64,000 nt of DNA from Lentimicrobium saccharophilum (GTDB taxonomy: Bacteria > Bacteroidota > Bacteroidia > Bacteroidales > Lentimicrobiaceae): contig NZ_DF968182.1 of the NCBI RefSeq assembly GCF_001192835.1, forward strand, positions 1,180,968 through 1,244,967, given 5' to 3'. Both the position numbers and the translations under genes were made by a program. Of the stretch, positions 10,897-43,976 are shown one piece after another. Within the stretch, counting starts at the first letter, position 1, and the number at the start of each line of letters is the position of its first letter. The notes beneath the pieces are model-generated. The model was not told the DNA's origin. It searched no databases and saw nothing but the letters and a program-made list of their open reading frames with translations.

Positions 10897-13800
10897 ATGA
10901 GAAAACTTTTTACATTGCTAATTCTGCTGTTCCTATGGGCCGGAAGCTCTTGGGGGCAGGGGCAGGTGAATGCCTACACATTCGTGAGTTCATCTGGCAC
11001 TTATACCGAAATTACCGGAGGAACCCAACTGGGCTCAGGTACAACTATGGATGATGTCAGCTACAATGCCAACAATATCGGATTTACATTTAACTTTAAT
11101 GAAACTAATTTCACACAGTTCAGTGTAAATGCCAACGGCTTTCTTGCTTTTGGTGCAAGTGTCTCCAGCAGTTATGCGGCATTAAGCACCGGATCCTCCA
11201 ACAATGTTATTGCCGCATTTAACGCAGACCTCCAGGGAAATACCGGAGCAACCCTGCGCTATGAGCTTTCCGGAACCACTCCAAACCAGGTGCTGACCAT
11301 TCAATGGAAAGACTTCAGGCATTATGCTGCTGCATCCGAAAGCTACAACTTTCAGGTAAAACTTTATGAAACTACAAATGTAGTTGAGGTAATTTATGGA
11401 ACCATAGTTAAGAACTCCACAGCCAGAACAAAGCAGGTAGGTTTAAGAGGATCCTCCAGTTCTGTGTTCAACAACAGGACGACAACTACAGATTGGGCGG
11501 CGACTACAGCAGGAGCATCCAATTCTGCAAACTGCACATTAACCAGCTCCATCTTTCCCGCAAGTGGTCTGACATTCACATGGACCCCACCGGCAATAGC
11601 CACCCCTCCCAACTGCGCAACCCTGGTCTCCCCTGCCGATGCAGCAACCAATGTACCTGTAAGTACCTCATTAAACTGGGCTTCCGGGGGCGGTGCGCCA
11701 ACTGGGTACAATCTTTACTTTGGAGCCGACGAGTTGCCTGAAGATCCAATCGACCTTGGTCTCGTAACCACTTACGATCCTGCGGGAGATATGGATTACT
11801 CCACTACTTATTATTGGAAAGTTGTTCCCTATAACGCTTTTGGAGATGCTACCGGTTGTCCTACATGGACATTTACCACAGGACCCGACCCGACAGTCAC
11901 TGTATTTCCATTTACCGAAGGGTTTGAAGGCGCGGCATTTCCGCCTTATGGATGGTCACAAATTACAGTTAGTGGTACTAGTCCCTGGATAATGTCCACA
12001 ATAAACCCACATTCCGGATTACAATGTGCCAGGGCTCCATGGGCCTCCGCAGGTGGTGAGCATCTATTGATTACTCCACCCCTTGATTTGAATTCTGTCG
12101 ATTATCGATTGAAATTCTGGTTAATTGGGAGTTCATTGGCCGGAACAGATCTGGAAGTTCAAATTGCTACGAGCAATTCATCTGCCTCCAATTTTTCGAC
12201 AACTCTCGCAACATATATTGCAGGCACAAATATGCCAACAGTTTGGACAGAACAGATAATTGACTTGTCAGCCTACGAGGACATTCAATATATTGCATTC
12301 AGATTGATTGATGATGATGGATATGCTTTTTACATTGATGATGTCACCATTGAAGAAATTCCTGCAACACCCGTATTTTCAGTCAGCCCGTTAACCAAAG
12401 ACTACGGATCAGTAGCTGTCGGTGGGTCATCATCACAGGTATTTACCATTTCCAATACAGGTGGTGGAACATTAGTTATTAACCCTGCCATTTCAGTTAC
12501 AGGCACCGATGCTGACCAGTTTGTACTAACTGATGCCAATTCTTATCCGTTGAGTCTTACCGCTGGCCAGACAGCTACTGTCAGTGTTGCATTTACCCCA
12601 ACTTCCGAAGGCGCAAAAAGTGCCAGCCTTGTTATTGTTGATAACCTGGGGTCGAAGGCTACCAACACTGTTCCACTTACAGGAACCGGCTTTGTTCCTC
12701 CTCCAGGCTCAACCTGCGATAATCCATATCCCACTACGCTTCCACTTGTAGATTTTTCCGGTAATACTTCAACCATGGGAGATGATTATTCAAGCACCTG
12801 GATTACTCCAAGTTCATTATATATGAATGGTGATGATATGGTGTTTGAATTTACCCTGACCGAAGCAGGATATCTTGACGGTTCAATGACAACCACGGAC
12901 TCGTACCTCGGATTGTTTATCCTTGAAGATTGCCCTGATCCTGTATCGCCTGCAGCGGTTATAAGGTCAGCTACCTCCTCCGGGTCTTCTGTTTCGTTTG
13001 CAGATCAGCTAATGCAACCAGGTACATACTTTGCCATCGTTTCCAGCTGGCCAGATCCTCAGTCAATCGAATTCATCCTGAATCTGTCGTTTGAACCCTT
13101 ACCCGACTGCCTTCCCCCGACCGGGCTCTCTGCATCAGTAACATCGACTTCAGCAAACCTTTCATGGACTGAAGCAGGTACAGCCACAGCATGGGAATAT
13201 GTTTACGGAGAAGCGCCGCTGGCAGAGCCAACCGGTTCGGGCACAGCTACTACGTCCAACACTGACAACCCGATTACTTCCCTTGAACCTGGTACAAACT
13301 ATCAGTTTTATGTAAGGGCAAATTGCGGTGATACATACAGTACATGGACCGGACCGGCATCATTCAGCACAACCCAAATTCCTGCCACTTTACCTCTTAC
13401 AGAAGGCTTTGAAAGTGGATTCGGATCATGGGCAGTTGTTAATGGAACGCAGCCAAATACATGGTTTGCCGGCACTGCCGCTGTACCCCACTCCGGAACT
13501 AATTCCGCTTTTATAACCAATGACGGAGGCACTTCATATTCTTATACAATAGATGCAGCAAGTGTTGTGCATCTGTATAGGGACATTGCCTTTACAGGAG
13601 GTGAAGCTGCAGGTTATTCTCTGAAATTCTGGTATAAAGGATTGGCAGAATCCTGCTGTGACTATATGAAGGTATTTATTGTAGATCCATCTACTTTGCC
13701 TGTTGCAGGCACACAGCTGACTACTGGTCAAATCGGAGTCAATTATAATCAACAGGCAGATTATGTTGAAGTCACATTAGCAATACCTAACACTGTAGCA

Positions 13801-16539
13801 GGAACAAAACGTCTGGTATTCAGCTGGAGAAATGACGGTTCTATTGGTCCAAATCCGCCAGTCTCTCTGGATGATATAAGCCTGCAGGTCATAACAACGG
13901 GAGCAGTCAGAGGCGAGGTAACCGATTGTTATACAGGCGCTTTACTGGAAGGTGTTACCGTATCAATTGCCGGTTCCACAACAACGACCGATGCCAACGG
14001 TTATTATGAGTTCCCCGCAATTGCAACAGGCACCTATGACCTGACAGCCAGTCTGTCTGGTTACTTTAACAAAACCATTACCGGTGTAGTTGTTTCAGAA
14101 GGTGCAACAACCACCCAGGATCTCTGCCTGAATATTTATGTTGACCCGCCGCTGAACCTCCAGGCAAGTGTTGAGAATCAGGATGTGCATCTAACATGGA
14201 ATGCACCGGGTGTTGTTCCGGAAAGTTTCACCGATGGCTTTGAAAGCTATACAGATTTCTCGCTTAGCTTTCCCCCATGGTTAAATACTGATATTGACCT
14301 TTCATCAACCTATTCTATCAGTGGCGTAACCTTTACAAATCAAGGTTACACAGGCGCATTTATCACATTTAATCCCGGCACTACTGTGCCTGCGCTGACT
14401 GATGCCGCCTGGCTGGCACATAGCGGCAGTAAATATGCCGCATGTTTCGCTGCTATTACTTTTCCAAATAACGATTGGTTGATCAGTCCTCAGGTTGCTG
14501 TAGTAACCGGATCTCAGCTTAAATTCTGGGCGAAAAGTGTTACTGATGCATACGGGCTTGAGCGCTTCAGGGTAGGAATTTCCACTACTGGCACCGCAAC
14601 GACTGATTTTACAATTATCAGCGCAGAACCATACATAGAAGCACCTTTAGATTGGACAGAATACACCTTTGATCTTTCGGCTTATGTAGGGCAAAATATC
14701 TATGTAGCCATTAATTGTGTTTCAAGTGATGCATTTGTCCTGATGATTGATGACTTCAGTATAGGTGTACCAGGCAAGAATGCTGAGCCAATTATTGCCA
14801 ATCGTCCATCTGACCGGCAATTAGTGAACCTACAGCCACCTACACGGAGTATTGTTAAGGGCTCCAATATAATTTCTGAAAAAGCCAATGTTGCTTTAAT
14901 TGATAATGCAACAGAAAACAACCGTGCACCAATGGCTACTTTAACCGGTTACAATATCTATAAAGATGAAGCATTTCTTGCTTATACCACATTAACAGAG
15001 TATGATGACCTTAACCTCCCGGCCGGCACATACAGCTATACTGTTACGGCTGTTTACACGGAAAGTGAATCAGAACCTGCAGGCCCTGTAACTGTTGAAA
15101 TCATTACATGTAATGTTCCGATCAATGTTCAGGTAGCCGATATTACTCCGACATCCGCCACCATTTCATGGACAGCACCCGATCCTGCCCCTGCCAACGG
15201 CTATGAATATGAAGTCAGAACCGACGGAGATCCGGGCAGCGGGGCAACCGGACTGGCAGCTTTTGGAACTACGGCTGCAGGGGTGACCACCGCCGATATC
15301 ACCGGGCTGGATGATGGAACCGCTTATATGGTTTATGTACGTTCAGTATGCGGGACAGATAATTACAGCAATTGGACAGGCGGAGTGGAGTTCGCCACCT
15401 CCTGCTTTGCACTGAATCTTCCATTCGCTGAAGACTTTGAAGAAACTTCAGCCAATTTAAATTGCTGGGTTATATACAACATTGACCTTGCCGGTACTTC
15501 GTGGGGACTTTCATCCTCTTACAACCATACAGAGGGTGGAACCCTGTCAGCAGCTCATGTTTATGGTCCTTCATCCAATACGGAGGATGGTTACCTTGTC
15601 AGCCCCGGATTGATTATCCCGGCTTCAGGATACATCGAACTCAGCTTCTGGTCATACAACGTATACCCAGGCGATTATGTTAAAAACAGTGTATTGATTT
15701 CTGCAGGCTCACCTGATCCTACTGATGGTGATTATGTTGAAATCTGGTCACCTGCTTCCGTAACTGCCAGTTGGGAACAGACACTGCTGGACCTCAGCGC
15801 CTATCACGGACAAACCATTTACATCGCATTCCGTTATGAAGGCAGTTTTGCGCACACCTGGCATCTTGACGATGTAAGTGTTTCCATCCAGACGCCTCCG
15901 ATTAAAACCCTCAATCTTAAAGCTTACATTGAAGGTTTCTGGAACGGCGTTTCAGCCATGAACCAGGCTCAGGATGTGGATCAGGATGAGAATATCTTCA
16001 ACAAGTTCAGCGGAACCACGGTGGATACCCTCAGTGTTTACCTGGCCGAAGCCGATGCCCCCTGGGCATATCTCTTTGCCGCACATGAAGTCAACATCAA
16101 CACCGACGGCTCCATGATTGTATCGGTTCCTGCAGCCTTCTCGGGCAGCTATTATATTGTAATTGACCACCACAGCAGTGTAGAAACCTGGAGTGCCCTG
16201 CCCGTTGATTTCAGCGGCACCACCATCGATTACGACTTTACCACTGCTGCCGGACAGGCTTACGGATCCAACCAGAAATCAATGGGTACGGTGTGGGCGC
16301 TCTATTCAGGCGATGTAGGCAATGATGAATACATTGAATTCCTTGATGTGGTTCCTGTTTACAACCTGAGTGTTGCCGGCTTCTTCGGATATTCACTCTT
16401 CGACCTTGACGGCAGCGGCTACATTGAATTCCTTGACTATATCATTGCATACAACAACAGTGTAAACGGTGTAGGCATGAACACGCCGCCCAACCCGGCC
16501 AAACGGCCCGGTTTGTTAAAGTTGAAACTGACTGATTAA
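10897..16539 (+). CDS. Giant modular secreted adhesin-like protein with dockerin-like C-terminus
   Basis: 1880 residues, exported by an N-terminal signal peptide (MRKLFTLLILLFLWAGSSWG). Modules read by eye: N-terminal beta domain (24-230), Ig/FN3-like (about 235-330), choice-of-anchor J/cleaved-adhesin (338-487), choice-of-anchor D (491-600, PVFSVSPLTKDYGSVAVGG), a prepeptidase-like beta domain (605-732), FN3 (737-828), a second adhesin module (830-1000), a carboxypeptidase-regulatory-like fold (1001-1080), adhesin (1110-1290), FN3 (1406-1500) and adhesin (1505-1665). The end is a beta-sandwich 'X' module (1669-1805), two calcium-loop repeats from Asp1806 (second loop DLDGSGYIEFLD) and the tail GMNTPPNPAKRPG. 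No enzyme motif and no T9SS tail were seen. Probably a surface structural or binding protein docked to a scaffold (inference). First gene of the cluster. Confidence 0.85.
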   Translation: MRKLFTLLILLFLWAGSSWGQGQVNAYTFVSSSGTYTEITGGTQLGSGTTMDDVSYNANNIGFTFNFNETNFTQFSVNANGFLAFGASVSSSYAALSTGSSNNVIAAFNADLQGNTGATLRYELSGTTPNQVLTIQWKDFRHYAAASESYNFQVKLYETTNVVEVIYGTIVKNSTARTKQVGLRGSSSSVFNNRTTTTDWAATTAGASNSANCTLTSSIFPASGLTFTWTPPAIATPPNCATLVSPADAATNVPVSTSLNWASGGGAPTGYNLYFGADELPEDPIDLGLVTTYDPAGDMDYSTTYYWKVVPYNAFGDATGCPTWTFTTGPDPTVTVFPFTEGFEGAAFPPYGWSQITVSGTSPWIMSTINPHSGLQCARAPWASAGGEHLLITPPLDLNSVDYRLKFWLIGSSLAGTDLEVQIATSNSSASNFSTTLATYIAGTNMPTVWTEQIIDLSAYEDIQYIAFRLIDDDGYAFYIDDVTIEEIPATPVFSVSPLTKDYGSVAVGGSSSQVFTISNTGGGTLVINPAISVTGTDADQFVLTDANSYPLSLTAGQTATVSVAFTPTSEGAKSASLVIVDNLGSKATNTVPLTGTGFVPPPGSTCDNPYPTTLPLVDFSGNTSTMGDDYSSTWITPSSLYMNGDDMVFEFTLTEAGYLDGSMTTTDSYLGLFILEDCPDPVSPAAVIRSATSSGSSVSFADQLMQPGTYFAIVSSWPDPQSIEFILNLSFEPLPDCLPPTGLSASVTSTSANLSWTEAGTATAWEYVYGEAPLAEPTGSGTATTSNTDNPITSLEPGTNYQFYVRANCGDTYSTWTGPASFSTTQIPATLPLTEGFESGFGSWAVVNGTQPNTWFAGTAAVPHSGTNSAFITNDGGTSYSYTIDAASVVHLYRDIAFTGGEAAGYSLKFWYKGLAESCCDYMKVFIVDPSTLPVAGTQLTTGQIGVNYNQQADYVEVTLAIPNTVAGTKRLVFSWRNDGSIGPNPPVSLDDISLQVITTGAVRGEVTDCYTGALLEGVTVSIAGSTTTTDANGYYEFPAIATGTYDLTASLSGYFNKTITGVVVSEGATTTQDLCLNIYVDPPLNLQASVENQDVHLTWNAPGVVPESFTDGFESYTDFSLSFPPWLNTDIDLSSTYSISGVTFTNQGYTGAFITFNPGTTVPALTDAAWLAHSGSKYAACFAAITFPNNDWLISPQVAVVTGSQLKFWAKSVTDAYGLERFRVGISTTGTATTDFTIISAEPYIEAPLDWTEYTFDLSAYVGQNIYVAINCVSSDAFVLMIDDFSIGVPGKNAEPIIANRPSDRQLVNLQPPTRSIVKGSNIISEKANVALIDNATENNRAPMATLTGYNIYKDEAFLAYTTLTEYDDLNLPAGTYSYTVTAVYTESESEPAGPVTVEIITCNVPINVQVADITPTSATISWTAPDPAPANGYEYEVRTDGDPGSGATGLAAFGTTAAGVTTADITGLDDGTAYMVYVRSVCGTDNYSNWTGGVEFATSCFALNLPFAEDFEETSANLNCWVIYNIDLAGTSWGLSSSYNHTEGGTLSAAHVYGPSSNTEDGYLVSPGLIIPASGYIELSFWSYNVYPGDYVKNSVLISAGSPDPTDGDYVEIWSPASVTASWEQTLLDLSAYHGQTIYIAFRYEGSFAHTWHLDDVSVSIQTPPIKTLNLKAYIEGFWNGVSAMNQAQDVDQDENIFNKFSGTTVDTLSVYLAEADAPWAYLFAAHEVNINTDGSMIVSVPAAFSGSYYIVIDHHSSVETWSALPVDFSGTTIDYDFTTAAGQAYGSNQKSMGTVWALYSGDVGNDEYIEFLDVVPVYNLSVAGFFGYSLFDLDGSGYIEFLDYIIAYNNSVNGVGMNTPPNPAKRPGLLKLKLTD
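15905..16520 (+). repeat. X-dockerin-tail coding cassette, copy 1
   Basis: Stretch encoding the beta-sandwich, two calcium loops and GMNTPPNPAKRPG tail. From about 15905 to 16340 it is almost identical at nucleotide level to 30374-30810 in the gene at 27295, with only scattered, mostly silent differences, although the upstream parts of the two genes are unrelated or highly diverged. More diverged cassettes lie at about 25468-26080 and 43345-43960. Confidence 0.85.
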
Positions 16540-16548
16540 TATCATCGG

Positions 16549-16592: not shown

Positions 16593-16629
16593 GAGGATCA
16601 CACAAAACCTTGCATATAAAATCAGAGAT

Positions 16630-17877
16630 ATGAAAGAGCAATTTATAAGAAGTATGAAAATAATGCTGACGGGTATCATCCTGATATCAGCCGGCACACT
16701 CCATGCGCAGTTACCTGCATACACGGCCTTTCTGAAAAACGACCTGATGACTGCAAATGATACTTATGAGTTTGACCTCTACCTGACCCGCACCGGCACC
16801 ATACCGCTGGAACTGGCCAATTTTCAGGCGGCCATCCTGGTTGATCCGGCGTTTGTAAACGGGGGGACCATTACACCCGCGATTATAGGGGGCGGCTCAG
16901 AATTAAACACATTGCAGCAACCGGCCTCCATTGGTTTTTCTGCAAGTGAGTCGTGTATAAAAATTGCTCCGGAAATTCCTCCAAGGACCCTTTTTCCCGA
17001 AACCCAGACCTCCTCAACCGACGGAACCATTATTTCGACTGAAGGAACCAGGGTTTGCCGGATCAGGTTATCCAATACCGTGCCTTTTGGCAATACTCAG
17101 ATCAATCCCATCTGGAATTTCACCATCCAGCCCTACCGTACAGCGGTAACCGCTTATACAGGCCCTGAAGATCAGCGTATTAACACATTTATCACGTTGG
17201 CCGAATCTCACAGTAAAACCCTTAATCTTACCTTACTTACCGAGGGGCTTTACAATCCGACAACCGGTCTGCTGAACAAAACACAGGATGTTGATGATGA
17301 TTACAATAGCTGGGATAATTTCCCGGGATTGGTAGCAGATACGCTCTCCATACTGCTGGCGCAGACAAGTTCACCCTGGAATATCCTTTGGGCTGTTCAC
17401 GGCGTGAGCCTCAATCAGACCGGCCATTGCAGGATTCCGGTGCCCGGGAATATGAACGGCACCTATTACATAGTTGCAAAACACCGCAACAGCGTTGAAA
17501 CCTGGTCAAAGGCCGGCGGCGAATCTTTTGCTTCGGGCATTACCTCATTCGACCTGAGCAGTGCTTCTTCACAGGCATTCGGGCAGAACCTGAAACCGGT
17601 GACGGGCGGCAAATATGTAATTTTTTCGGGTGATGTAAGTTCTTCGACCCCATCAGTTCAGGACGGCTATATTGATTTCTTCGACCTGACACAGATATAC
17701 AACCTCAATGTTAACAGTGCTTACGGATATCAGGCATCTGACCTTACCGGAGAGGGCTTTGTAGATATTGTCGACCTGATCATGGTTTACAACAACAATA
17801 TTAACGGTGTAGGCATGAACACGCCGCCCAACCCGGCCAAAAGGCCCGGAACCTCAAACGTACAGCTCACTGAGTAA
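16630..17877 (+). CDS. Secreted cohesin-like plus dockerin-like protein (possible adaptor)
   Basis: 415 residues. ATG at 16630 (MKEQFIRSMKIMLTGIIL, cleavage near LHAQ) is preferred; an in-frame GTG at 16579 lies inside the terminator stem. After the signal peptide, a domain at about 30-190 (KNDLMTANDTYEFDLYL, then AAILVDPAFVNGG) resembles both cohesin-type beta sandwiches and the N-terminal domain of the large scaffolds at 17936 and 31067. Next come the X module (about 196-325), a divergent dockerin-like repeat from Asp335 (the first loop interrupted by an insertion, the second DLTGEGFVDIVD) and the tail GMNTPPNPAKRPG. A protein with both halves of the proposed interaction could bridge scaffold and clients. 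The cohesin assignment is by eye and uncertain; secretion and the shared C-terminus are clear. Confidence 0.78.
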   Translation: MKEQFIRSMKIMLTGIILISAGTLHAQLPAYTAFLKNDLMTANDTYEFDLYLTRTGTIPLELANFQAAILVDPAFVNGGTITPAIIGGGSELNTLQQPASIGFSASESCIKIAPEIPPRTLFPETQTSSTDGTIISTEGTRVCRIRLSNTVPFGNTQINPIWNFTIQPYRTAVTAYTGPEDQRINTFITLAESHSKTLNLTLLTEGLYNPTTGLLNKTQDVDDDYNSWDNFPGLVADTLSILLAQTSSPWNILWAVHGVSLNQTGHCRIPVPGNMNGTYYIVAKHRNSVETWSKAGGESFASGITSFDLSSASSQAFGQNLKPVTGGKYVIFSGDVSSSTPSVQDGYIDFFDLTQIYNLNVNSAYGYQASDLTGEGFVDIVDLIMVYNNNINGVGMNTPPNPAKRPGTSNVQLTE

Positions 17878-17935: not shown

Positions 17936-20900
17936 ATGAAAAAATCAAAACTCTTCCTAAGCATGAAAGTGCTTCTGACCTTGTTGGCTCTTTTTGCCTT
18001 GGCCGGGGCACAGGCTCAGCCTGTTGCTTCCTCCGAGGTGATTCTTGCCAATGATGAGATAATCAGCCCCAATGTGATTGAATTTGACCTGTATGTCAAG
18101 TCAACCAACAATGTCGATTTTCCTGACGGCTTCCCCTATGGCGGGGGGCAGTACAGGATTAACTTCAACCCGGCCATCCGCAACGGGGCCAATACCCAGA
18201 TCTTTTTCGAAATGATCCCGGGCACTACCGGGTTAACGAACACGGCACAGGCTCCGCCTTCTGTTACCAATCCCTCTCTGGCCCAGAGTTTTGTCAGGCT
18301 TACCGGGCCTTTACCGGTGGCCTACGGCGCAGCTTCAATTATTTCACCAACCGGTAACGGTACCAGGATCATCAGGTTAAGGATGACCAGCAGGGATAAC
18401 ACAAACCAGACTCCGGTTCCATTTACTCCAGGTATCGCACCATCCCTTGTCCTTTCAACCTCGGCTCCCGGGGCTACAACAACCTCCTATGTTATTCCCG
18501 CGGGAACCGTATTGTTCTGCAGCCCACAGGTATTGACTACCTTACTGAACAATCTCCCGCCCAACCCGGCAGGAAGCCCGCCCCTGGCCTTTAACGTGAC
18601 AGGCGGAGGCTCATACTGCCAGGGCCTCGCAGGATTACCTGTCGGACTGGAAGATTCAGAACTTGAGGTCAATTATGAACTGCTGCTTGGCGGAGCCCCC
18701 ATGGTTCCTCCCGTTATTGTTGGTGGAACCGGTGAGGCCATCACTTTTGGCGATCAGCTGGCAGGAGTCTATACGGTCACCGGAACCAATGCTTTCGGAT
18801 CAACACCGATGACCGGTGAGGCAGTCATTACTGAAATGCCGCTGGTAACGTCTACCGTAGCGATTGCTGCAGATCCGGCCGGACCTGTCTGCCAAGGAAC
18901 TACGGTAACCTTTACCGCAACCCCGGTGAACGGCGGCGACCAGCCGGCCTATGAGTGGTTTGTTGGCGGCGTTTCCCAGGGCATCGATTTTTCAGGTTCA
19001 TTCTCCTATGTCCCTGTTGACGGAGATGCCGTTTATGTTGTAATGATCCCCGACATCCTGTGCTCGGCAGGAAATGCCACTTCTAATACCATAGATATGG
19101 TGGTTGAAGAACCGCTCCCGGTCAGCGTAAGCATTGAAGCCGACGATACCGAGGTATGCGCAGGCACCAGCGTTACATTCACCGCCACACCGATGAACGG
19201 GGGAACCCCTGACTACCAGTGGTACCTGAATGGCAACACGGTCGGCAACAACAGCGCCATCTATAGTGTCATTCCGGAAAACGGAGACCAGGTCTACGTA
19301 GTGATGAACTCAAGCCTGGGATGCACCACCGGCAACCCCGCCACTTCTAATACCATAGCAATAACTGTCAATCCGCTGCTGACACCATCAGTAAGCATTG
19401 TAGCTGATCCCGCCGGCGCCGTTACAACAGGAACAACCGTAACATTTACAGCTACTCCTGTATACGGAGGTGTACCCACCTATGAATGGTTTGTTAACGG
19501 AAGCTCTGTAGCCACAGGAAATCCCTATGCTTACATTCCGCTAAATGGCGATGAGGTATATGTTATAATGACCAGCACTGAAGCATGCGTCACCACAGCT
19601 ACTGCCGTTTCTGATATTATCACCATGGTGGTTGAAGACGTGATACTGCCTCCTGTTGCCTTTGAAATGACAGGCGGAGGCTCATACTGTGAAGGAGAGG
19701 ATGGCGTTGTGGTCGGACTATCGGGATCTGAGATCGGGGTAACTTACACCCTCTATCAGGATGCCGTAGCAGTGGCTTCGACACCCGGGACAGGCGCTGC
19801 CCTTGACTTTGGGCTCAGACTCGAAGGCGTTTATACCGCCAGCGGAACCAATTCGGGAGGGACTACAGATATGACCGGAAGCGCCATTGTGATCGAAAAT
19901 GCACTGCCGGATGTTACCTGTCCCACCGATATGGATGTTTGTATCAATGCAGGCGGTCAGACGCTTGCCGGCGGCAGCCCCACAGGCGGGGTGTATTCAG
20001 GCACAGGTGTAACTGACGGTATTTTCTATCCCGCAGTTGCAGGTGTTGGAGCACATACCATAACCTATACCTATGAAGATATGGAAACCGGATGCTCCGA
20101 TTTCTGCACCTTTACAATTACCGTTCTTGACATACCTGCCGCTGCCGGACTTATTGCTGGCCCGGCCACGGTTACCGAAGGAGATATGGGCGTAGCCTAT
20201 AATGTCGGCGTGATAGCCAATGCCACTTCTTATGTCTGGGTTTACTCAGGAACCGGAGTTACCATCTTCGGAACCGGCAACATGATTACCCTCGACTTTG
20301 CCATCGGGGCAAGCAGCGGAGTATTATCCGTTTACGGTGTAAACAGCTGCGGAATGGGTGTTGAATCATTCTTTGACATTACCGTTGAACCCCAGGTTAT
20401 CTCCTGCACGGAAACTACCTGGACCGGACTTATTGATGAAGGCTGGTTTAATATCGGCAACTGGGATCCCTGCGTACCAACCGCAGAAACGGATGTAACC
20501 ATCCCCGGCGGGGTACCCAATTTCCCGACACTTACCGTACCTGCCGAATGCGCCAGCATCCTGATTCTTGACGGTGGTTCATTTATTGGTGCCGAGAACC
20601 TGACTGTGGCCGAAGCCGAAGTACAGCGCTATTTTGCCAACTCCGACTTCCACTTCCTGTCATCGCCGGTCACCAACATTAACTTTGGCACCGTATTCCC
20701 GCTGAACCAGGATGCCGTATGGGCACGCGAATATGACGAGCCTTCAGGCGACTGGGTCAATCTGTTTGTGTATGACTTTATGGAAGTGGGTCTTGGTTAT
20801 TCCATCGAAATGACCGAGCCTCAGATGGCCCTCTTCCCGGGCGTATTCAACAGCGCTGATGTTACCAAAACCCTTTCGTACCAGAATATGGGCGGTGATC

Positions 20901-26260: not shown

Positions 26261-26902
26261 ATGAAAGCAAACTTTCACATATTTCCGCCTTTAACCCTTT
26301 TACTCTTTTTTGTATCAATGGTCATGGGTACTTCAGCTTATGCGCAGACTGCATCCTGCGAAGTTTATCTGACCAACGACGCGCAGACAGCCCCTGATCA
26401 GATTGAATTTGATATCTGTGTAAGATCGACAAACCATGATGATTTTCCTGCCGGATTTTTATACGGGCACGGACAGTACAGAATTGAATTTAATCCATCC
26501 ATTATAAACCATGAACGCGATCTGATTGAGGTTGAAGTATTAAAAGGGTCTTCAGAATTAAGTTGTGTTGATCAGCAGCCACTCCACTGTAGTTTTTTGC
26601 CTGATACTATCAGTGCTTATCTGGTCAGGGCAAGGTTTCCGGTAAAACCGGAGCTTGCATCACTGATCCCTGCCGGAAATACCGGGATCAGAATAGCCCG
26701 GATCAGCATGAAAGTTGTAAGTATCTCCGAAAAAACGCCATCCTTTTTCAATCAAGGCACCACAGCCGATCTCCGCTTATCAGATCAGAATCCGGGAACT
26801 ACAGCTGTATCATTTATGGAGAAATCCGGAACAGTGGCTGTTTGCAAGCCGATTGAACTATCAGGCGCTTCCTTATCCAACAAACCATTGCTCGGGCAAT
26901 GA
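26261..26902 (+). CDS. Stand-alone cohesin-like domain protein
   Basis: 213 residues: a signal peptide (MKANFHIFPPLTLLLFFVSM, cleavage near AYAQ) followed by a single domain. That domain aligns by eye with the N-terminal domain of the scaffolds at 17936 and 31067: NDxxxxPxxIEFD, STNxxDFPxGFxYGxGQYRIxFNPSI, and a closing GTVAVCKPIEL against GTVLFCSPQVL. It has no Ig repeats, T9SS tail, dockerin-like loops or GMNTPP tail. It may be a free competitor/regulator of the proposed interaction, or a remnant of a degraded scaffold copy. The frame is intact, and a terminator and its own leader precede it, so I call it a gene rather than a pseudogene. Confidence 0.75.
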   Translation: MKANFHIFPPLTLLLFFVSMVMGTSAYAQTASCEVYLTNDAQTAPDQIEFDICVRSTNHDDFPAGFLYGHGQYRIEFNPSIINHERDLIEVEVLKGSSELSCVDQQPLHCSFLPDTISAYLVRARFPVKPELASLIPAGNTGIRIARISMKVVSISEKTPSFFNQGTTADLRLSDQNPGTTAVSFMEKSGTVAVCKPIELSGASLSNKPLLGQ

Positions 26903-35540: not shown

Positions 35541-38500
35541 ATGAAAAAACTTCAATCTGCTTCATTAACAATTTTTCTGTCAATATTCTCACTGACTCTG
35601 ACTGCGCAACAGGAAAGCATAATAAATCCTACCGGATCGCAAAAGCCAACACTGATTACATCATCAGAACAAGTTGTTTCGGTGCCTTCCATTGCGGCGC
35701 AAATAGCAAACGGCACCTTCAGGCCGGCAGAAGACGAAAAGAAAGAATTTAATCCCAAGCGCTGGGGCTCGAACAATTCCGTTCCGGGCAAAGGCCTTCC
35801 CGCCGGAAATGACCCGCTTTGGGAAATGCAAACTAAGTCTCCTTTAAGGTCAGGTAAGGCGCCCATCCTGACTTTTGAAGCAGCCAGCGCATCGTCCACA
35901 CCTACAGATCCTACAGGTGCAGTCGGGCCGAATCATTTTGTAAACTCCTGGAATACCGCATTCAGAATCTGGGACAAGAACGGCAACCCGTTAACGGCCG
36001 CTGCTTCTTTAGGAACGATATTCCCGGGAACTTTGGGAGATCCGATCGTTGTATACGATCGTTACGCCGACAGATTTATGCTGACCGAATTTTTCTCCAA
36101 CGGTTTTGATGTAGCCATCAGCCAGGGACCTGATCCGGTAAACGACGGATGGTATGTTTACAGGTTTAATACCAATACCTTCCCTGATTATCCTAAGTTC
36201 TCCGTATGGTCTGACGGATACTATATCACAGCCAATAAGGACCAGAACACAGCAGGCAGCAGCCAGGTGGTTTTTGTCCTTAACCGGGATCAGATGATTG
36301 CCGGAAGTGCATCGGTACAAATGCTGGGCTTTCCGCTGACCGGAATCGTTACCAGCGGATTTTACAGCCCTCTTGGCTTTAACTGCAATGGCCCTTCGCT
36401 GCCACCGCCGGGCAACGCACCCATCGTATACATGCAGGATGATGCCTGGTCGGGGGTATCAACCGACCATCTGAAAATATGGACGATCAATGTCAACTGG
36501 TCGGTACCTGCCAATTCAACCATTTCCAGTCCACAGATCATTAACACACAGGCATTCGATGGTCTTTTCGACGGCGGGTCCTTCTCCAACCTGCCCCAAC
36601 CATCGGGCGGCGACATTGATGCATTGCAGGCCACAATTATGTATATGGCCCAATACCGGAGATTCCCAACCTACAATTCTGTAGTTTTCAATTTTGTGGT
36701 TGATCTTAACGGAGCCGACAACTATTCAGGCATCCGTTGGTATGAACTCAGGCAAAGCACCGATGGTGCGCCCTGGACCATTCATCAGGAAGGCACCTAT
36801 GCCCAGCCCGGCGGACACAGCGCCTTTTGCGGCAATATGTGCATGGATGCCAGCGGCAATATAGGTCTGGCTTATACAATCGTCAGCGCATCCCAATTCC
36901 CCTCCCTGCGTTTTACAGGACGTTACGCTTCTGATCCTCCGGGGCAGATGACCCTTGCTGAGGAGATCATCGCTACAGGCACCCAATCCGACCCTTCAAC
37001 CCGCTACGGAGACTACGCCCAAATGACCATTGATCCCACAGACGATGCAACCTTCTGGACCATCTCCGAATATTTTAACGGGGGACGGAAAAACCATGTG
37101 GGGGTATTTCAGATAGCTCCACCGGCGCTTACAGCAGATTTTTCCGCTTCTCCCACAACCCTCTGCAATTCAGCATCCGTTACTTTTACTGACCAGTCCT
37201 TGTCATCCCCGACCTCATGGAACTGGATTTTTCCGGGTGGCATCCCTTCCGTTTTCAGCGGACAGACCCCACCCCCGGTCGCGTATCCGGCATCAGGCGA
37301 TTATGATGTTACCCTGACAGTTTCTGACGGTACCAATACCAGTATTGAAACAAAGACAGCATACATACATGTCAGAGACCTGATTCCCGATTTTACAGCA
37401 AATTCCACAAACCTGATTGTCGGCAACAGTGTAATTTTCACCGACAATTCGGAATGTAACCCGACAGGATGGGAATGGCTGTTCCCGGGAGGAAATCCAT
37501 CCTCCTGGTCGGGCCAGGTTCCTCCTCCTGTTACCTATAACAGCACCGGTACCTATGACATCACATTAACCATTACCAAATCCGGTTTGACAGAAACGAT
37601 TACAAAAACCGGTTATATCAATGTTATCCCCCCGGTATACTACATGACCAACGGCAACATAACTGCCTGCAGCGGTGATTTTTACGACTCAGGCGGGCCG
37701 GGTGAAAATTATCAGAATAATGAAGATTTCACACTGACCTTTTTACCATCCACCCAAGGGGCAATGATTACTGTTTCATTCAGCTCTTTCAACCTCGAAT
37801 CAGGTTATGATTATCTGAGCATATACAACGGTAGCAGTTCAGCCGCTCCACTGCTGGGAACATTCAGCGGAACCAGCCTGCCCGGGTCATTCACCGCAAG
37901 TAATCCCGACGGAGCGCTGACATTCAATTTTTCTTCTGACAATACGGTGGTCAGGGCCGGATGGGCAGCCACCATCGGCTGCTTCAGCTTAACAGATCCG
38001 CCCGTTGCGGAATTTTCGGCATCTACCACAACCACCCTTGTAAATACAGGCATCACGCTTAACGACCTCTCAGAGAACATACCAACTTCATGGCTCTGGA
38101 GCATTTCACCGGATACGTTTACATTCATCAACGGGACCAATGCCAACAGCCAGAATCCTGAAGTTGAATTTGACGCAACAGGAGCCTATACTGTTTCTCT
38201 CACCGCATCCAACGACTACGGATCAGACACAGAGACAAAAACCAATTATATTAATGTAATCCTTTACGAGTATTGTATTCCCACCTATACATCAGGCTCA
38301 GGGGCAGGTGATTACATTTCGCTTGTACAACTCGGTGATATCAATAACGCCAGTGGTGCATCGGCTAGTCCATATTACACCTACTACAGCAATCTTACCA
38401 CCGACCTGAATCCCGGCTCAGATTATACAATCACGTTAAGCCCGGGCACATACAGCAACGGGAATAATATCTCGGTATGGATTGATTATAATCAGAACGG

Positions 38501-39284
38501 AGTTTTTGATACTGCGGAAAAACTGGGTAATATCAATATCCCACCGACACCAGCCACCGGCTCTATCAACTTTACTGTTCCGGAAAATGCAGCTCCGGGA
38601 ACCACCCGTATGCGTGTGCGGGAAGTATGGAACAACAGCAACTTTGATCCATGCTCTGCATATGGATATGGTGAAACCGAAGACTACAATGTGTATATTT
38701 TAAGCACAGAGAAAATACTCAATTTCACGGTTTACCTCGAAGGATTGTATGCCGGCAACGGCACAATGAATCAGGCCTTTAACACTACAGGGCCGCAGTT
38801 CAGCGCGGGGATCGCCGATCAGGTCTCCTTAGAATTGCATAATGCAACGGATTATAACATTCTGGAATATGTGATTCAAGAAATCAATCTTGGCACCAAT
38901 GGTTCAGCTTCAGTTACATTTCCGGCGCAGTATGCCGGAAGTTATTATCTCACTGTGAGGCACCGTAATTCGCTTGAAACCACATCAGCCATTCCTGTTT
39001 CCCTGAGTGGCCCGGTAACTGACTATGCATTTAACCAGCCATCGGCCATTTTCGGAAACAACCTGAAACAAATGCCTGACGGACAGCATGCAATTTTCGG
39101 CGGCGACGTTAACCAGGACGGCCTCATCAACCAGGTTGACATTGATGATGTAAACACCAATGCCTCCATGTTCATTTCGGGTTATGTAGTCTCTGACGTT
39201 AATGGCGACGGCCTCGTTGACATTCAGGATTTCCAGATTATTGACAACAACCAGTTTAATTTCACCGGCTCTGCATTGCCTTAA
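35541..39284 (+). CDS. Secreted PKD/CUB/GEVED multidomain protein with canonical dockerin-like repeats
   Basis: 1247 residues. Signal peptide MKKLQSASLTIFLSIFSLTL with cleavage near TAQ. A large N-terminal domain (about 90-530, DPTGAVGPNHFVNSWNTAF) is probably beta-propeller-like; function unknown. Then PKD (535-615), PKD (620-700), CUB (703-812, CSGDFYDSGGPGENY to NPDGALTFNF), PKD (815-910), GEVED (912-1055, ISVWIDYNQNGVFD), the X module (about 1059-1195) and two textbook calcium loops, DVNQDGLINQVD and DVNGDGLVDIQD. Unlike the other dockerin-like proteins here it lacks the GMNTPPNPAKRPG tail and ends in NFTGSALP. It may dock to a different partner or represent the ancestral form of the module. 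Confidence 0.88.
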   Translation: MKKLQSASLTIFLSIFSLTLTAQQESIINPTGSQKPTLITSSEQVVSVPSIAAQIANGTFRPAEDEKKEFNPKRWGSNNSVPGKGLPAGNDPLWEMQTKSPLRSGKAPILTFEAASASSTPTDPTGAVGPNHFVNSWNTAFRIWDKNGNPLTAAASLGTIFPGTLGDPIVVYDRYADRFMLTEFFSNGFDVAISQGPDPVNDGWYVYRFNTNTFPDYPKFSVWSDGYYITANKDQNTAGSSQVVFVLNRDQMIAGSASVQMLGFPLTGIVTSGFYSPLGFNCNGPSLPPPGNAPIVYMQDDAWSGVSTDHLKIWTINVNWSVPANSTISSPQIINTQAFDGLFDGGSFSNLPQPSGGDIDALQATIMYMAQYRRFPTYNSVVFNFVVDLNGADNYSGIRWYELRQSTDGAPWTIHQEGTYAQPGGHSAFCGNMCMDASGNIGLAYTIVSASQFPSLRFTGRYASDPPGQMTLAEEIIATGTQSDPSTRYGDYAQMTIDPTDDATFWTISEYFNGGRKNHVGVFQIAPPALTADFSASPTTLCNSASVTFTDQSLSSPTSWNWIFPGGIPSVFSGQTPPPVAYPASGDYDVTLTVSDGTNTSIETKTAYIHVRDLIPDFTANSTNLIVGNSVIFTDNSECNPTGWEWLFPGGNPSSWSGQVPPPVTYNSTGTYDITLTITKSGLTETITKTGYINVIPPVYYMTNGNITACSGDFYDSGGPGENYQNNEDFTLTFLPSTQGAMITVSFSSFNLESGYDYLSIYNGSSSAAPLLGTFSGTSLPGSFTASNPDGALTFNFSSDNTVVRAGWAATIGCFSLTDPPVAEFSASTTTTLVNTGITLNDLSENIPTSWLWSISPDTFTFINGTNANSQNPEVEFDATGAYTVSLTASNDYGSDTETKTNYINVILYEYCIPTYTSGSGAGDYISLVQLGDINNASGASASPYYTYYSNLTTDLNPGSDYTITLSPGTYSNGNNISVWIDYNQNGVFDTAEKLGNINIPPTPATGSINFTVPENAAPGTTRMRVREVWNNSNFDPCSAYGYGETEDYNVYILSTEKILNFTVYLEGLYAGNGTMNQAFNTTGPQFSAGIADQVSLELHNATDYNILEYVIQEINLGTNGSASVTFPAQYAGSYYLTVRHRNSLETTSAIPVSLSGPVTDYAFNQPSAIFGNNLKQMPDGQHAIFGGDVNQDGLINQVDIDDVNTNASMFISGYVVSDVNGDGLVDIQDFQIIDNNQFNFTGSALP

Positions 39285-39395
39285 TGCAGGATACGGATTA
39301 AAAGAATCCGGCATGCTTGAGTTCAAAATCCTGATTATGCGGTAATAATCCGAATAAACCCAATGAAATTATTAACAACTCAAATACTTCAGACA

Positions 39396-42300
39396 ATGAA
39401 AAAAATCAAACACGTTTTATTACTGTTCTCAATTATGTTTGTGATTACCACAAACTTATCTGGGCAAGTAGTTATCAGCCAGGTATATGGAGGCGGAGGA
39501 AATACCGGTGCACCATATACACATGATTTTATTGAGCTGTTTAACAAAGGGACAAACGCAGTTGACCTGAACGGTTGGTCGGTTCAATATGCGTCTGCCA
39601 CAGGATCCACCTGGAGTGTAACGAGCCTTACATCGGTCACACTTCAACCCGGGCAGTATTACCTGATCCAGCAAGCTCAGGGATCCGGAGGCACCAGTCC
39701 ACTTCCAACTCCGGATGCCATTGGTACAATCGCGATGTCCGGCACAAACTGCAAAGTTGCTTTGACAAACACCACCACAGCCTTATCAGGCGCCTGCCCC
39801 ACCGGAACCGAAATTGTTGATTTTGTTGGGATTGGAACAGCAAACTGTTATGAAGGAACAGGAGCTAGTCCCGCAATGAGCAATACAACGTCCGTTTCAC
39901 GGGCTTCTTCAGGATGTACAGATAACAATGATAATTCAGCAGATTTCACGGCAGGAGCACCTAATCCAAGAAATACCTCTTCCCCGTTAAATGTCTGTTC
40001 TGCCAATGCTGCAGCAACACCTGTATTCTCGCCGGGCAGCGGTAATTATTTCAATCCGGTTTCGGTAAGCATTACCTGCCTGACTCCGGATGCCATAATT
40101 TATTACACATCCGATGGCAGTGACCCTGACAATACCAGCACAGAATACACCGTACCGGTAAATGTCAGTACCACTACCACCCTGAAAGCCATTGCCTATG
40201 CCGACGGATTTGACCCAAGTGCGATAGCCACTGCGATATACACTTTCCCGCCAGTCACCGAGGTAGCGGATATTGCAAGCCTGAGAACAGGGCTGACAGA
40301 CGGAACAATCTACCGCCTGACAGGAGAAGCCGTGCTTACGTATCAGACAACCGAACGACATGTTAAGTATATTCAGGATGCAACCGGCGCCATTTTAATT
40401 GATGACTTTGCCGGAATTATTTCCACCACATACAATCTGTACGATGGCATCACGGGAATAACCGGCGCCCTTGGCTCATTTAACGGCATGCTGCAGTTTA
40501 CCCCGGTTACCGACCCCGGTGCAGCCAGCAGTTCAGGAAACACGGTTACCCCGGAAGATGTTACGCTGACTGAACTGACTGCCGGTTATCAGGCCCGGCT
40601 TGTAAGGGTACTAAATACAACCATTACAGGCAGCAGTCCGTTTGCTGCCAATACGAGTTATGCGCTTTCCGATGCAAGTGGCAGCGGAGTTTTGCGCACA
40701 CAGTATGACGATCTGGACTATATCGGAACAGCAGTTCCAACGCTCCCGCAAAACCTGACCGGGGTAGTTCTCGAGTTTAATACTAACATGCAACTGGTTC
40801 CGCGCGGACTTGCAGATTTCGAGGAAATAATCCCCGAAGATCCGACCATATTTGTCAGTCCTTCGGCGCTCAGCGGTTTCAATTATGTGCAGGGCAATGG
40901 TCCTTCGGCAGAGCAAACCTTTATTGTTTCGGGAGAAAACCTCACCGCCGGCATTAACATTGCCGCATCCGCAGATTATGAAATTTCCCTTACTTCCGGT
41001 ACGGGATATTCATCCCCGCTTACCCTGACACCAACTACCGGATCGGTTGGTGAAACTACCATTTTTGTGAGGTTAAAAGCCGGATTAACGGCAGGAGATT
41101 ATAATGATGAAATCATCAGCCTCACTTCAACGGGAGCTACCGATCAATCCGTAACATGCAGCGGCTCCGTAAGCCTGCCTCCTCCACCGGATGCACCTGT
41201 TGCGCTGGCCGCAACCGATGTCACAACAACTGGTTTTACGGCCAACTGGCAGGCTGTATCAGGTGCTTCATCTTACCGGCTTGATGTTTATGCCACCACC
41301 ATAACTCCGGCTACCGATCTGTTTTTCTCCGAATACATTGAAGGAAGCAGCAACAACAAAGCACTGGAAATTTTTAATGGCACAGGCAGTGCCGCCGACC
41401 TCTCCGATTACACCGTTTACACATACTCTAACGGGGCTGTTGACCCATCTTATACATTAGAATTATCCGGCACATTAGACAACGGGGATGTATATATTAT
41501 AGCAAATGCGTCAGCCAATGCAGCAATCCTGGCGCTGGCAGATGTTACATCCAACGTTACTTTCTATAATGGTGACGATGCTGTCGTTTTATACAAAGAA
41601 TCAACAGCATCCAATGTTGATATCATCGGCCGGATTGGCGAGGATCCCGGTTCTGCCTGGGGCACACCTCCCCTTACAACCCTCAATCAGACCCTTGTCA
41701 GGAAAAGTTCCGTTATCTCAGGGGTGACTGTAAATCCTGCAAGCGGATTCCCGACCCTGGAAACAGAATGGGATGCTTATGATATAGATGTGATCACCTA
41801 CCTGGGTAGTCATTCGCTGGCCGGAGATATCATTTATGTAACCGGTTTCCAGGACCTTAACGTAGGGGATGTCACGAGTTACCCGGTTACGGGACTTGCA
41901 CCCGGCACAACGTATTATTATGTAGTACGGGCTGTGAATGACAATGGCGCCAGTGCAAATTCGAATGTAATCGAAGTAACTACCGGAGGAATTATTCTCA
42001 CCCCCCCTGTGATTATCTCCCCGACGGCTACCGGAATAACTGTAAATTCAGCCATACTGGGAGGAAATATCACCTCTGATGGCGGCAGCCCGGTGACTGA
42101 AAGAGGAACGGTATGGAACACGACCGGAAGCGTTACCATTGATGACAACAAACTGGCTGAAGGGGGCACCACAACGGGAATTTTCACCCATCTCAGAAGC
42201 GGCCTGCCTGAAGGCACACAGATATTTTACTGTGCCTATGCCACCAATGCCGAAGGAACAACACTGACCAATGAAGCGAGCTTCTACACCCTGTTCAGCG

Positions 42301-43976
42301 AGCCGGACAACCATGTTACCAACTTCACTGCCGGCACAGCCACCGTTACCTCCATCCCGCTTACGTGGACCGATGCGACCGGAACAGTATTGCCCGAAGC
42401 ATACCTGATCAAAGGGAGTTCAGTAAGTTTTGATGATATTGCCGATCCGGCCGACGGCGTACCTGAATCCAACGGAGCGCTGGTCAGAAATGTAATCCAG
42501 GGGACACAGGCCTATACTTTTGAAAACCTGACTCCTGAAACACCGTACTTCTTCAAAATCTATCCCTACACCAATTCAGGTACCGCCATTGACTACAAAA
42601 CCGATCCGGTGGTTCCTACTGCAACAGCTGTAACACTTGAAATACCTGCCGGTGCATTGGTGTACGAGCCTTTTGATTACCCCGCAGGAGAAACATTACC
42701 GTCACAGACAAACTGGACCGGTATTAATACTGGGGATGACAATATTCTTATCAGCGAAGGTAACCTGACATACAGCGGCTTGCAGGTATCAGCCGGTAAT
42801 AAAGTTTCATTTGCCGGAGGCGGAATTGATGCATACAGAACCTTCGTCAGTCAGACTGCCAATATTGTCTACTATTCATTTATCATGAATGTAACCGACC
42901 TGAATCTGTTAAACGCCACCGGAGGCTATTTCACCGGAATTGCAAGCAATTCAACCAATTTTGGCGCTACAGTATGGACCGGGCTTGACGGAGATGGCTA
43001 CAGGATTGGTATCAATCCAAGGAGTACCACGGCAAATACCGTTTGGGCCACAGGCACGCAAACTATAGGGAATGCTGTCCTGGTTGTTGTTTCATACGAA
43101 TTTGTCGAAGGTACAGGCAACGACGTGGTTAATATCTGGGTGAATCCGGCAGCGGCCTCCCTGGGAGCAGCAATACCCCCGGCAGCAACAGCCACGGCTA
43201 CCAATACCGACGGCACAGACCTCGGCAGTATATCACAATTTTTTATCCGGCAGGACAGTGATTCGGAAACCCCGTTCATCGATATGGATGAATGCAGGGT
43301 CGGCACCTCATGGGCGGATGTCACACCGGCAGGTTCAGCCGGAAAAACGCTTAATTTAAAAGCATATATTGAAGGTTTCTGGAATGGATCAGGCATGAAC
43401 CAGGCCCAGGATGTGGATCAGGATGAGAATATCTTCAACAAGTTCAGCGGAACCACGGTTGACACCCTCAGTGTTTACCTGGCCGAAGCCGATGCCCCCT
43501 GGGCATATCTCTATGCCGCGCATGAAGTCAACATCAACACCGACGGCTCTATGGTCATTTCAGTACCTGCAGCCTTCTCCGGCAATTATTATATTGTAAT
43601 TGACCACCACAGCAGTATTGAAACCTGGAGTGCCCTGCCCGTTGATTTCAGCGGCACCACCATTGATTATGACTTTACCACTGCCGCTGAGCAGGCCTAC
43701 GGCTCCAACCAGAAATCGATGGGAACGGTATGGGCGCTCTTTTCAGGGGATGTTGGCAATGATGAATACATCGAATTCCCGGATGTGGTTGCCGTCTACA
43801 ACCTGAGCGTAGCTTCTTTCTTCGGATATACGCTTTACGACCTTGACGGCAGCGGATACATAGAATTCCTTGACTACATCATTGCTTACAACAACAGTGT
43901 AAACAGCGTTGGCATGAACACCCCGCCCAATCCGGCCAAGCGGCCAGGCTATTCAAACACTAAGCCAACAAACTGA
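39396..43976 (+). CDS. Giant secreted lamin-tail-domain protein with dockerin-like C-terminus
   Basis: 1526 residues from the ATG at 39396 (MKKIKHVLLLFSIMFVITTN, cleavage near LSGQ); the in-frame ATG at 39363 would add 11 residues before a good signal peptide, so it is not preferred. Modules: lamin-tail domain 1 (about 24-165, VVISQVYGGGGNTGAPYTHD), a chitobiase/HEX C-terminal-like domain (206-285, TPDAIIYYTSDGSDPDN), a DUF5689-like OB domain (288-480), a beta domain (485-580), FN3, lamin-tail domain 2 (about 640-760, LFFSEYIEGSSNNKALEI), FN3-like units, a lectin-like region, then X module (from about 1317), calcium loops and tail GMNTPPNPAKRPG. Lamin-tail and DUF5689 modules often accompany extracellular nucleases or phosphatases in this phylum (family knowledge), but no catalytic domain was seen. 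The first calcium loop carries a Leu-to-Pro change (YIEFPD). Confidence 0.85.
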   Translation: MKKIKHVLLLFSIMFVITTNLSGQVVISQVYGGGGNTGAPYTHDFIELFNKGTNAVDLNGWSVQYASATGSTWSVTSLTSVTLQPGQYYLIQQAQGSGGTSPLPTPDAIGTIAMSGTNCKVALTNTTTALSGACPTGTEIVDFVGIGTANCYEGTGASPAMSNTTSVSRASSGCTDNNDNSADFTAGAPNPRNTSSPLNVCSANAAATPVFSPGSGNYFNPVSVSITCLTPDAIIYYTSDGSDPDNTSTEYTVPVNVSTTTTLKAIAYADGFDPSAIATAIYTFPPVTEVADIASLRTGLTDGTIYRLTGEAVLTYQTTERHVKYIQDATGAILIDDFAGIISTTYNLYDGITGITGALGSFNGMLQFTPVTDPGAASSSGNTVTPEDVTLTELTAGYQARLVRVLNTTITGSSPFAANTSYALSDASGSGVLRTQYDDLDYIGTAVPTLPQNLTGVVLEFNTNMQLVPRGLADFEEIIPEDPTIFVSPSALSGFNYVQGNGPSAEQTFIVSGENLTAGINIAASADYEISLTSGTGYSSPLTLTPTTGSVGETTIFVRLKAGLTAGDYNDEIISLTSTGATDQSVTCSGSVSLPPPPDAPVALAATDVTTTGFTANWQAVSGASSYRLDVYATTITPATDLFFSEYIEGSSNNKALEIFNGTGSAADLSDYTVYTYSNGAVDPSYTLELSGTLDNGDVYIIANASANAAILALADVTSNVTFYNGDDAVVLYKESTASNVDIIGRIGEDPGSAWGTPPLTTLNQTLVRKSSVISGVTVNPASGFPTLETEWDAYDIDVITYLGSHSLAGDIIYVTGFQDLNVGDVTSYPVTGLAPGTTYYYVVRAVNDNGASANSNVIEVTTGGIILTPPVIISPTATGITVNSAILGGNITSDGGSPVTERGTVWNTTGSVTIDDNKLAEGGTTTGIFTHLRSGLPEGTQIFYCAYATNAEGTTLTNEASFYTLFSEPDNHVTNFTAGTATVTSIPLTWTDATGTVLPEAYLIKGSSVSFDDIADPADGVPESNGALVRNVIQGTQAYTFENLTPETPYFFKIYPYTNSGTAIDYKTDPVVPTATAVTLEIPAGALVYEPFDYPAGETLPSQTNWTGINTGDDNILISEGNLTYSGLQVSAGNKVSFAGGGIDAYRTFVSQTANIVYYSFIMNVTDLNLLNATGGYFTGIASNSTNFGATVWTGLDGDGYRIGINPRSTTANTVWATGTQTIGNAVLVVVSYEFVEGTGNDVVNIWVNPAAASLGAAIPPAATATATNTDGTDLGSISQFFIRQDSDSETPFIDMDECRVGTSWADVTPAGSAGKTLNLKAYIEGFWNGSGMNQAQDVDQDENIFNKFSGTTVDTLSVYLAEADAPWAYLYAAHEVNINTDGSMVISVPAAFSGNYYIVIDHHSSIETWSALPVDFSGTTIDYDFTTAAEQAYGSNQKSMGTVWALFSGDVGNDEYIEFPDVVAVYNLSVASFFGYTLYDLDGSGYIEFLDYIIAYNNSVNSVGMNTPPNPAKRPGYSNTKPTN

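Follow-up and report, generated by a model that had tools for sequence, protein, structure and literature searches.

Type II cohesin/X-dockerin pairs have been described from the cellulosomes of Clostridium thermocellum and Ruminococcus flavefaciens, and single-cohesin anchors are also known from these cellulosomal systems. Reportedly, cohesins and dockerins outside cellulosomes were the subject, according to its title, of a 2009 paper by Peer et al. Here, a comparable locus is described from the 4.5 Mb genome of Lentimicrobium saccharophilum (Bacteroidota), in which nine consecutive genes at positions 10897-43976 of a 64,000-nucleotide stretch (hereafter the window; assembly GCF_001192835.1, contig NZ_DF968182.1, positions 1,180,968-1,244,967) very probably encode a divergent cohesin-dockerin system. 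In this system, large X-dockerin proteins without a sorting domain of the type IX secretion system (T9SS) would be held on the cell surface by T9SS-sorted anchors, each bearing one cohesin.

Two similar complexes have been proposed in other phyla, one inferred from metagenome-assembled genomes (MAGs) of Ca. Stygibacter (Cloacimonadota; PMC8542988) and the other a hypothetical complex of Nemodlikiaceae (Planctomycetes), the 'Planctosome' (PMC6461901). In other papers, no cohesin or dockerin is reported for the cellulases of Melioribacter (PMC3534657), dockerin or scaffoldin proteins are reported to be absent from two soil Bacteroidetes (PMC6247017), PF00404 dockerins are listed in some Bacteroidota single-cell genomes (PMC10266427), and no cellulosomes were found in a rodent gut (PMC8810776). 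A literature search, beyond which most subscription journals lay, returned no title or abstract opening describing the present cohesin-dockerin family in Bacteroidota.

An X-dockerin tail shared by six exported proteins

Because Pfam and NCBIfam failed to identify the cohesin-like and X modules of the window, dedicated profiles were built for both. Six proteins, named here by the start positions of their genes (10897, 16579, 22364, 27295, 35541 and 39363), share a C-terminal pair of modules, namely an X beta-sandwich of approximately 130 residues and a two-loop dockerin-like module of approximately 60 residues. The second of these genes has an ATG at 16630 in a reading frame that is already open from a GTG at 16579, and both numbers are used for its product. 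Any two of the six tails have 63-195 identical residues over 186-211 aligned, and the profile made from them has 15 matches across the genome, counting the six themselves (E 2.3e-121 to 1.0e-45).

The two repeats of the dockerin-like module resemble each other more than expected by chance. Among 47 distinct tails from the window and its relatives, the repeats of one protein share 12.64 of 23 positions, compared with 8.61 after random re-pairing, and when the re-pairing was confined to single genomes (43 tails), the values were 12.56 and 11.71, respectively; in neither case did any of 5000 shuffles reach the observed value. Residues peculiar to each protein are common to both its repeats, a symmetry that is usual in dockerins whose two binding faces are equivalent. 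Moreover, comparison of the tail profile with PDB sequences yielded 35 distinct matches at E<=1, which by name comprise 26 dockerins, cellulosomal enzymes or scaffoldins, five EF-hand proteins and four others. The best match is 2b59_B (cellulosomal scaffolding protein A, E 0.0024), and residues 232-300 of 3kcp_A, another entry of this protein, are also aligned. Repeat symmetry and PDB matches together indicate the duplicated calcium loop-helix repeats of type I dockerins. None of the six window tails reaches the gathering score of PF00404 (35541 scores 13.9 bits against a cut-off of 22.9, and the other five are not listed at E<=1); three other tails of the genome score above it. The six exported proteins with a common beta-sandwich and two-loop tail had been proposed in a sequence-only reading of the window, all of whose features could be located, and this proposal is borne out by the coordinates, the tail identities and the repeat symmetry.

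An extension of the GMNTPPNPAKRPG type follows the dockerin-like module and is conserved in 10897, 16579, 22364, 27295, 39363 and a lone tail on contig C2 (L027:7128-8690), and it is absent from the generic tails of the same genome.

A cohesin-like domain recognised by predicted fold

A second domain of approximately 170 residues occurs in four window proteins. In 17936 and 31067 it is N-terminal, in 26261 it stands alone, and in 16630 it precedes the X-dockerin. The domains of 17936 and 31067 are identical (180/180 residues), and 26261 and 16579 share 73/177 and 44/165 residues with them, in agreement with the stand-alone and the more diverged fused form distinguished in the sequence-only reading. 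The profile of the four domains matches those four places alone in the genome, and no cohesin match was found for the four proteins in Pfam or NCBIfam at E<=1.

The AlphaFold2 model of residues 29-208 of 17936 (17 alignment rows) reached a predicted local distance difference test (pLDDT) score of 89.7 and a predicted template-modelling (TM) score of 0.87. When this model was compared with 350,542 PDB chains by Foldseek, 19 of them matched at E<=0.001, the best 18 being cohesins and the 19th a mu-homology domain; the top match is 5lxv_A (E 1.5e-5, TM 0.57/0.60). The domain is thus modelled as a jelly-roll beta-sandwich of the cohesin fold, and the likeness to cohesins, which the sequence-only reading had staked on the predicted fold, is upheld. 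In the model of the 16630 product (388 residues, 31 rows, pLDDT 73.6), the cohesin and X parts are good. Four PDB chains match it at E<=0.001, namely 3kcp_A and, from 4fl4, I, C and L; all come from C. thermocellum and are cohesin-X-dockerin fragments of CipA. With a whole-chain TM of approximately 0.2, what is alike is the local folds and the sequence in which they follow one another, and a matching arrangement of the domains is not claimed.

Several relatives were noticed to have a protein or reading frame with two cohesin-like domains, and thus a multivalent layout (L079:236-3754, L111:1236-3302, and genes on contig C105 of G433 and contig C7 of G416).

Gene pairing, co-occurrence and sorting domains

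With the window cohesin profile, relatives were found in 9 of 19 genomes of the genus, the genome under study counted, and a nine-row cohesin-like alignment served to retrieve related loci. Tails are present in all nine of these genomes and in one of the 10 others (Fisher p 1e-4); a genome-wide search for the tail (15 places) and for its coincidence with the cohesin-like domain had been suggested in the sequence-only reading. The corresponding figures are 15/17 cohesin-positive genomes versus 11/55 others in a distant family (f36, 72 genomes; p 6e-7) and 6/7 versus 36/385 in a sample of the phylum (at most nine candidates scored per genome; p 7e-6), all p values ignoring the relatedness among genomes. 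In four genomes of the phylum sample (G190, G254, G285 and G312), a cohesin-like gene lies directly after a tail gene, and, as judged from the sequences, very divergent forms of the pair turn up again in families that are only distantly related within the phylum.

Gene order was examined in 41 cohesin-like genes from 32 sources (the window, L076 and L078-L107), which were picked by the cohesin profiles and not by the tail; duplicate records (L069-L075), a contig-end fragment (L077) and one place in G003 were left out. Thirteen of these genes are fused to an X-dockerin. Among the 28 unfused genes, 22 are directly preceded on the same strand by an X-dockerin gene, at a distance of 12-306 bases, the remaining six being L080, L086, L093 (close to the start of a contig), L105, L106 and L107. 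By match coordinates in the genus, with fused genes included, a tail lies upstream of 20 of 32 cohesin-like matches and downstream of 11, and neither is the case for two. Between genomes, the cohesin and dockerin distances of the 22 pairs are correlated (r 0.718, reached by none of 2000 full permutations). When partners were shuffled within genomes, the observed correlation was reached in 36, 276 and 168 of 2000 shuffles for the dockerin, the X module and the whole tail, respectively, and for this reason co-variation is treated as weak support.

The two members of the pair also differ in their sorting domains. Both 17936 and 31067 pass the T9SS sorting model TIGR04183 (30.1 and 27.9 bits, cut-off 23), and PF18962 is found in them below its cut-off (15.2 and 13.6 of 27). 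The genome encodes SprA (2697.6 bits), and TIGR04183 exceeds its cut-off in all 150 places scored of 191 candidates. These two proteins can therefore be classed as T9SS type A substrates, as the sequence-only reading had it, and its statement that the dockerin-like proteins lack such tails likewise holds, no T9SS sorting model being matched at E<=1 in the six window X-dockerin proteins. A scan of 17 of the 28 unfused cohesin-like proteins gave 15 that pass a sorting model (14 TIGR04183 and one, L076, the type B model TIGR04131), L086 just below the TIGR04183 cut-off with 21.5 bits, and the stand-alone 26261 with no sorting domain. The other 11 include three that are cut by a contig or stretch end and five stand-alone proteins of 198-221 residues, which, like 26261 and judging from their length and ends, probably have no sorting domain.

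Candidate clients across the genome

Four peptidases are found among the 15 X-dockerin proteins of the genome: an S8 protease (22364), two C25 peptidases (contig C1, 733895 and 738869) and an M14 carboxypeptidase (C1:2652398). C25 peptidases are classic T9SS cargo; both members found here carry the C25 propeptide, and the tail occupies the usual position of the sorting domain. Several of the 15 proteins are adhesin-like. No glycoside-hydrolase catalytic domain was found among them, C1:724991 being covered for the first 1302 of its 2138 residues. Accessory-type matches are GH85_C (21 residues, C1:724991), a sialidase N-terminal domain (C1:25903) and CHB_HEX_C_1 (39363). A polysaccharide-degrading cellulosome was therefore rejected, which agrees with the earlier view of a machine that is not built on polysaccharide enzymes. 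Another of the 15 proteins with the X-dockerin tail is a PETase-like alpha/beta hydrolase (PF12740, 81.6 bits; L025:15010-16839, corresponding to G000:C1:723009-724838).

Proposed mechanism and alternatives

In the proposed system, large exported proteins (peptidases, other hydrolases and adhesin-like proteins) would carry a C-terminal X-dockerin in place of a T9SS sorting domain. The dockerin of such a client would bind, presumably with calcium, to the cohesin at the N-terminus of an anchor, whose C-terminal sorting domain would fix it to the cell surface. The 16630 product may act as an adaptor or chain extender that links a further client, and the 26261 product may be a free cohesin. The expected output would be surface-held proteolysis and adhesion. 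A role of the X-dockerin proteins, including the S8 protease, as clients had been suggested by the sequence-only reading and fits the gene order, the co-occurrence and the sorting-domain split in several families. The same reading had cast the T9SS-sorted pair as anchored scaffolds; the three lines of evidence just named favour the anchoring part, and the window proteins, with one cohesin-like domain each instead of the several of a scaffoldin, look more like anchors than like multi-enzyme scaffolds.

The clients would have to pass the outer membrane without a C-terminal sorting domain (CTD) of their own. It is conceivable, though on balance doubtful, that they dock in the periplasm onto the cohesin of a CTD-bearing carrier and cross the T9SS translocon as a complex, a piggy-back form of type IX secretion. 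If so, the dockerin would replace the CTD for cargo that includes gingipain-family proteases, and a fast-diverging cohesin-dockerin code, inherited as client-carrier gene pairs in Bacteroidota, would set the matching of cargo and carrier.

Several observations weigh against the anchoring of X-dockerin cargo on cohesin-bearing proteins. The first loop is irregular in five of the six window tails (35541 is regular in both loops), with Gly at position 3 in 10897, 22364, 27295 and 39363 and a six-residue insertion in 16579, and calcium binding by these five is uncertain for this reason. A comparison of the cohesin-like profile with PDB sequences brings up no cohesin at E<=1. In the 16630 model, most of the dockerin part has pLDDT <50, the whole-chain TM to the scaffoldin chains is low, as given above, and many weaker beta-sandwich chains rank below them. 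The stand-alone 26261 has no sorting domain and is ill-suited to an anchor role. In family f36, a tail lies directly upstream of just 10 of 35 cohesin-like matches, and two genomes have such a match and no tail. Moreover, the pairing and the distance signal are partly due to the inheritance of whole gene pairs. The chief point is that no cohesin was detected in 36 of the 42 tail-positive genomes of the phylum sample and 11 of the 26 in f36, to which one genome of the genus (G016) is to be added.

Twenty tail loci were inspected in 15 such genomes, hand-picked as 14 of the 36 in the phylum sample and G438 of f36. One locus stops at a contig edge right after the tail; among the remaining 19, a partner-like gene follows directly downstream on the same strand in 12 and is absent in seven. 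In one of the 12 (L111), this gene is cohesin-like and fused, and in the other 11 a T9SS-like tail could be recognised by eye (in L120 after the last tail gene only). When ten of the downstream proteins were scanned, eight passed TIGR04183 and two failed (20.0 and 13.7 bits). Comparison of their N-terminal groups with the cohesin profile by hhalign gave 95.7% for a group of two, 62.1% for a group of six and 8.1% for a group of two, with controls at 0.1 and 0.2%. By this profile comparison, the first group can be regarded as cohesin-like, the second is equivocal and the last is not cohesin-like. The pair thus seems wider than the profile; at the same time, some tails have no adjoining partner gene, and a cohesin can be recognised in some of the partners but not in all. 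CTD-bearing proteins with a weak or no match to the cohesin profile were noticed right downstream of X-dockerin genes in L113, L114, L117, L118, L119, L125 and L127.

A different idea is that the X-dockerin is itself an alternative signal for export or surface sorting, through another T9SS tail or route, and that its cohesin-like neighbours are not partners. The tail does lie at the C-terminus, in the place of the CTD, with an invariant Pro near its end in a 26-row alignment, it is carried by two C25 peptidases, and in many genomes it is found where no cohesin was detected. However, it is dockerin-like by profile and its neighbour has a cohesin fold, pairing and co-occurrence are far above chance, and the majority of the inspected loci in cohesin-negative genomes do have a partner-like downstream gene, even if seven do not; a signal of this kind is therefore considered very unlikely. 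The fused genes raise another question, namely whether proteins with both modules polymerise head-to-tail into surface fibres or a matrix, the anchoring of enzymes being secondary. This is in keeping with the 13 fusions among the 41 cohesin-like genes and with the X-dockerin proteins of the genome in which no catalytic domain was matched, several in number, but 28 of the genes are unfused, 22 of them adjoin a separate client, and four of the 15 X-dockerin proteins are peptidases, so polymerisation as the main role appears unlikely. Finally, cohesin-like and X modules could be structural beads co-inherited through tandem duplication and have no binding role, a view to which the recent duplication of 17936 and 31067 (first 615 bases identical) lends itself, as do the within-genome permutations, which trace much of the distance correlation to a common history. 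Against it, pairs of very divergent sequence are met again in other Bacteroidota families and the sorting domains remain on the cohesin-like partner, which leaves this view with hardly any probability.

The gene cluster

The nine consecutive genes and the modules of their products are listed in Table 1. All nine products have signal-like hydrophobic N-termini, as judged from hydropathy and not by a signal-peptide predictor. A partial match to an ExeM-like nuclease in 39363 (89.7 bits) is far below the cut-off of 1300.

Table 1. Genes of the cluster in window coordinates, with the modules assigned to their products
Feature	Position	Strand	Description
Putative client 1	10897..16539	+	1880 aa, multidomain exported protein; choice-of-anchor J, choice-of-anchor D and fn3 matches; X-dockerin tail 15904-16536
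Putative adaptor	16630..17877	+	Signal-like N-terminus; cohesin-like domain ~16711-17214; X + dockerin-like modules 17215-17874
Putative anchor 1	17936..21838	+	Cohesin-like domain 18020-18550; Ig/PKD-like repeats; T9SS type A sorting domain (residues 1237-1299)
Putative client 2	22364..26101	+	S8 subtilase (PF00082, E 1.3e-39); X-dockerin tail 25469-26098
Stand-alone cohesin-like exported protein	26261..26902	+	213 aa; sorting domain: none found
Putative client 3	27295..31008	+	MAM / choice-of-anchor J protein; X-dockerin tail 30373-31005
Putative anchor 2	31067..34972	+	Paralogue of 17936 (1164/1300 residues identical); cohesin-like domain identical
Putative client 4	35541..39284	+	PKD/CUB/GEVED protein; generic-type tail 38712-39281, two regular loops
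Putative client 5	39363..43976	+	Lamin-tail domain, DUF5689; X-dockerin tail 43344-43973

The identical stretch of the two anchor genes spans 17936-18550 and 31067-31681, and from base 700 on the identity is 83-100% per 100 bases. Identity at the start combined with divergence in later stretches suggests that the cohesin-like domains have been kept uniform by recent duplication or gene conversion. On either side of the cluster lies a regulator gene, one of the AraC type whose product is hydrophobic in its N-terminal half (8216-9460, minus strand) and one that is NUDIX/NrtR-like (44233-45000, plus strand).

Significance and comparison with known systems

Because the family escapes Pfam and NCBIfam, published statements on the occurrence of such proteins may have to be revised. 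If the pairing is real, a protease-linked surface-assembly system has been overlooked in several Bacteroidota families. A testable question also follows, namely by which route T9SS bacteria bring large exported proteins to the surface when these lack a sorting domain. For protein engineering, gene adjacency in the locus and its relatives points to candidate new cohesin-dockerin pairs.

The present locus shares with the cellulosomal type II system the cohesin fold, an X module before a C-terminal two-repeat dockerin, the presence of cohesin and X-dockerin in one protein, and a separate anchor protein. It differs in that the cohesin is unrecognisable by sequence, a T9SS sorting domain would serve as the anchor, and the X-dockerin proteins include peptidases and no glycoside-hydrolase catalytic domain.

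The scaffoldin of Ca. Stygibacter likewise has a conserved C-terminal domain for surface attachment, for which a T9SS review is cited, and its dockerin clients include S8/S53 and C25 peptidases (PMC8542988). In contrast to the present system, a single scaffoldin of 3,755 aa carries tandem cohesins and carbohydrate-binding modules found by InterProScan, and GH18 and GH57 proteins are among the clients (PMC8542988); here, the anchors have single cohesins that are invisible to Pfam and NCBIfam, client and anchor genes are adjacent, and the phylum is a different one. The 'Planctosome', in the accessible portion of its description, is similar as a hypothetical peptide-degrading complex made up of an anchor with a cohesin, an adaptor that combines dockerin and cohesin, and peptidase clients, M14 among them, and it differs in that the anchor is tethered via a lamin-tail domain in the authors' model, T9SS not being mentioned in that portion (PMC6461901). 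Thus, similar complexes have already been proposed in Cloacimonadota and Planctomycetes, and the combination of a CTD-bearing scaffold with protease clients in a cohesin/dockerin complex has been put forward before, in another phylum. What is new here is a cohesin family that is cryptic, the arrangement of the genes in pairs and the breadth of its occurrence.

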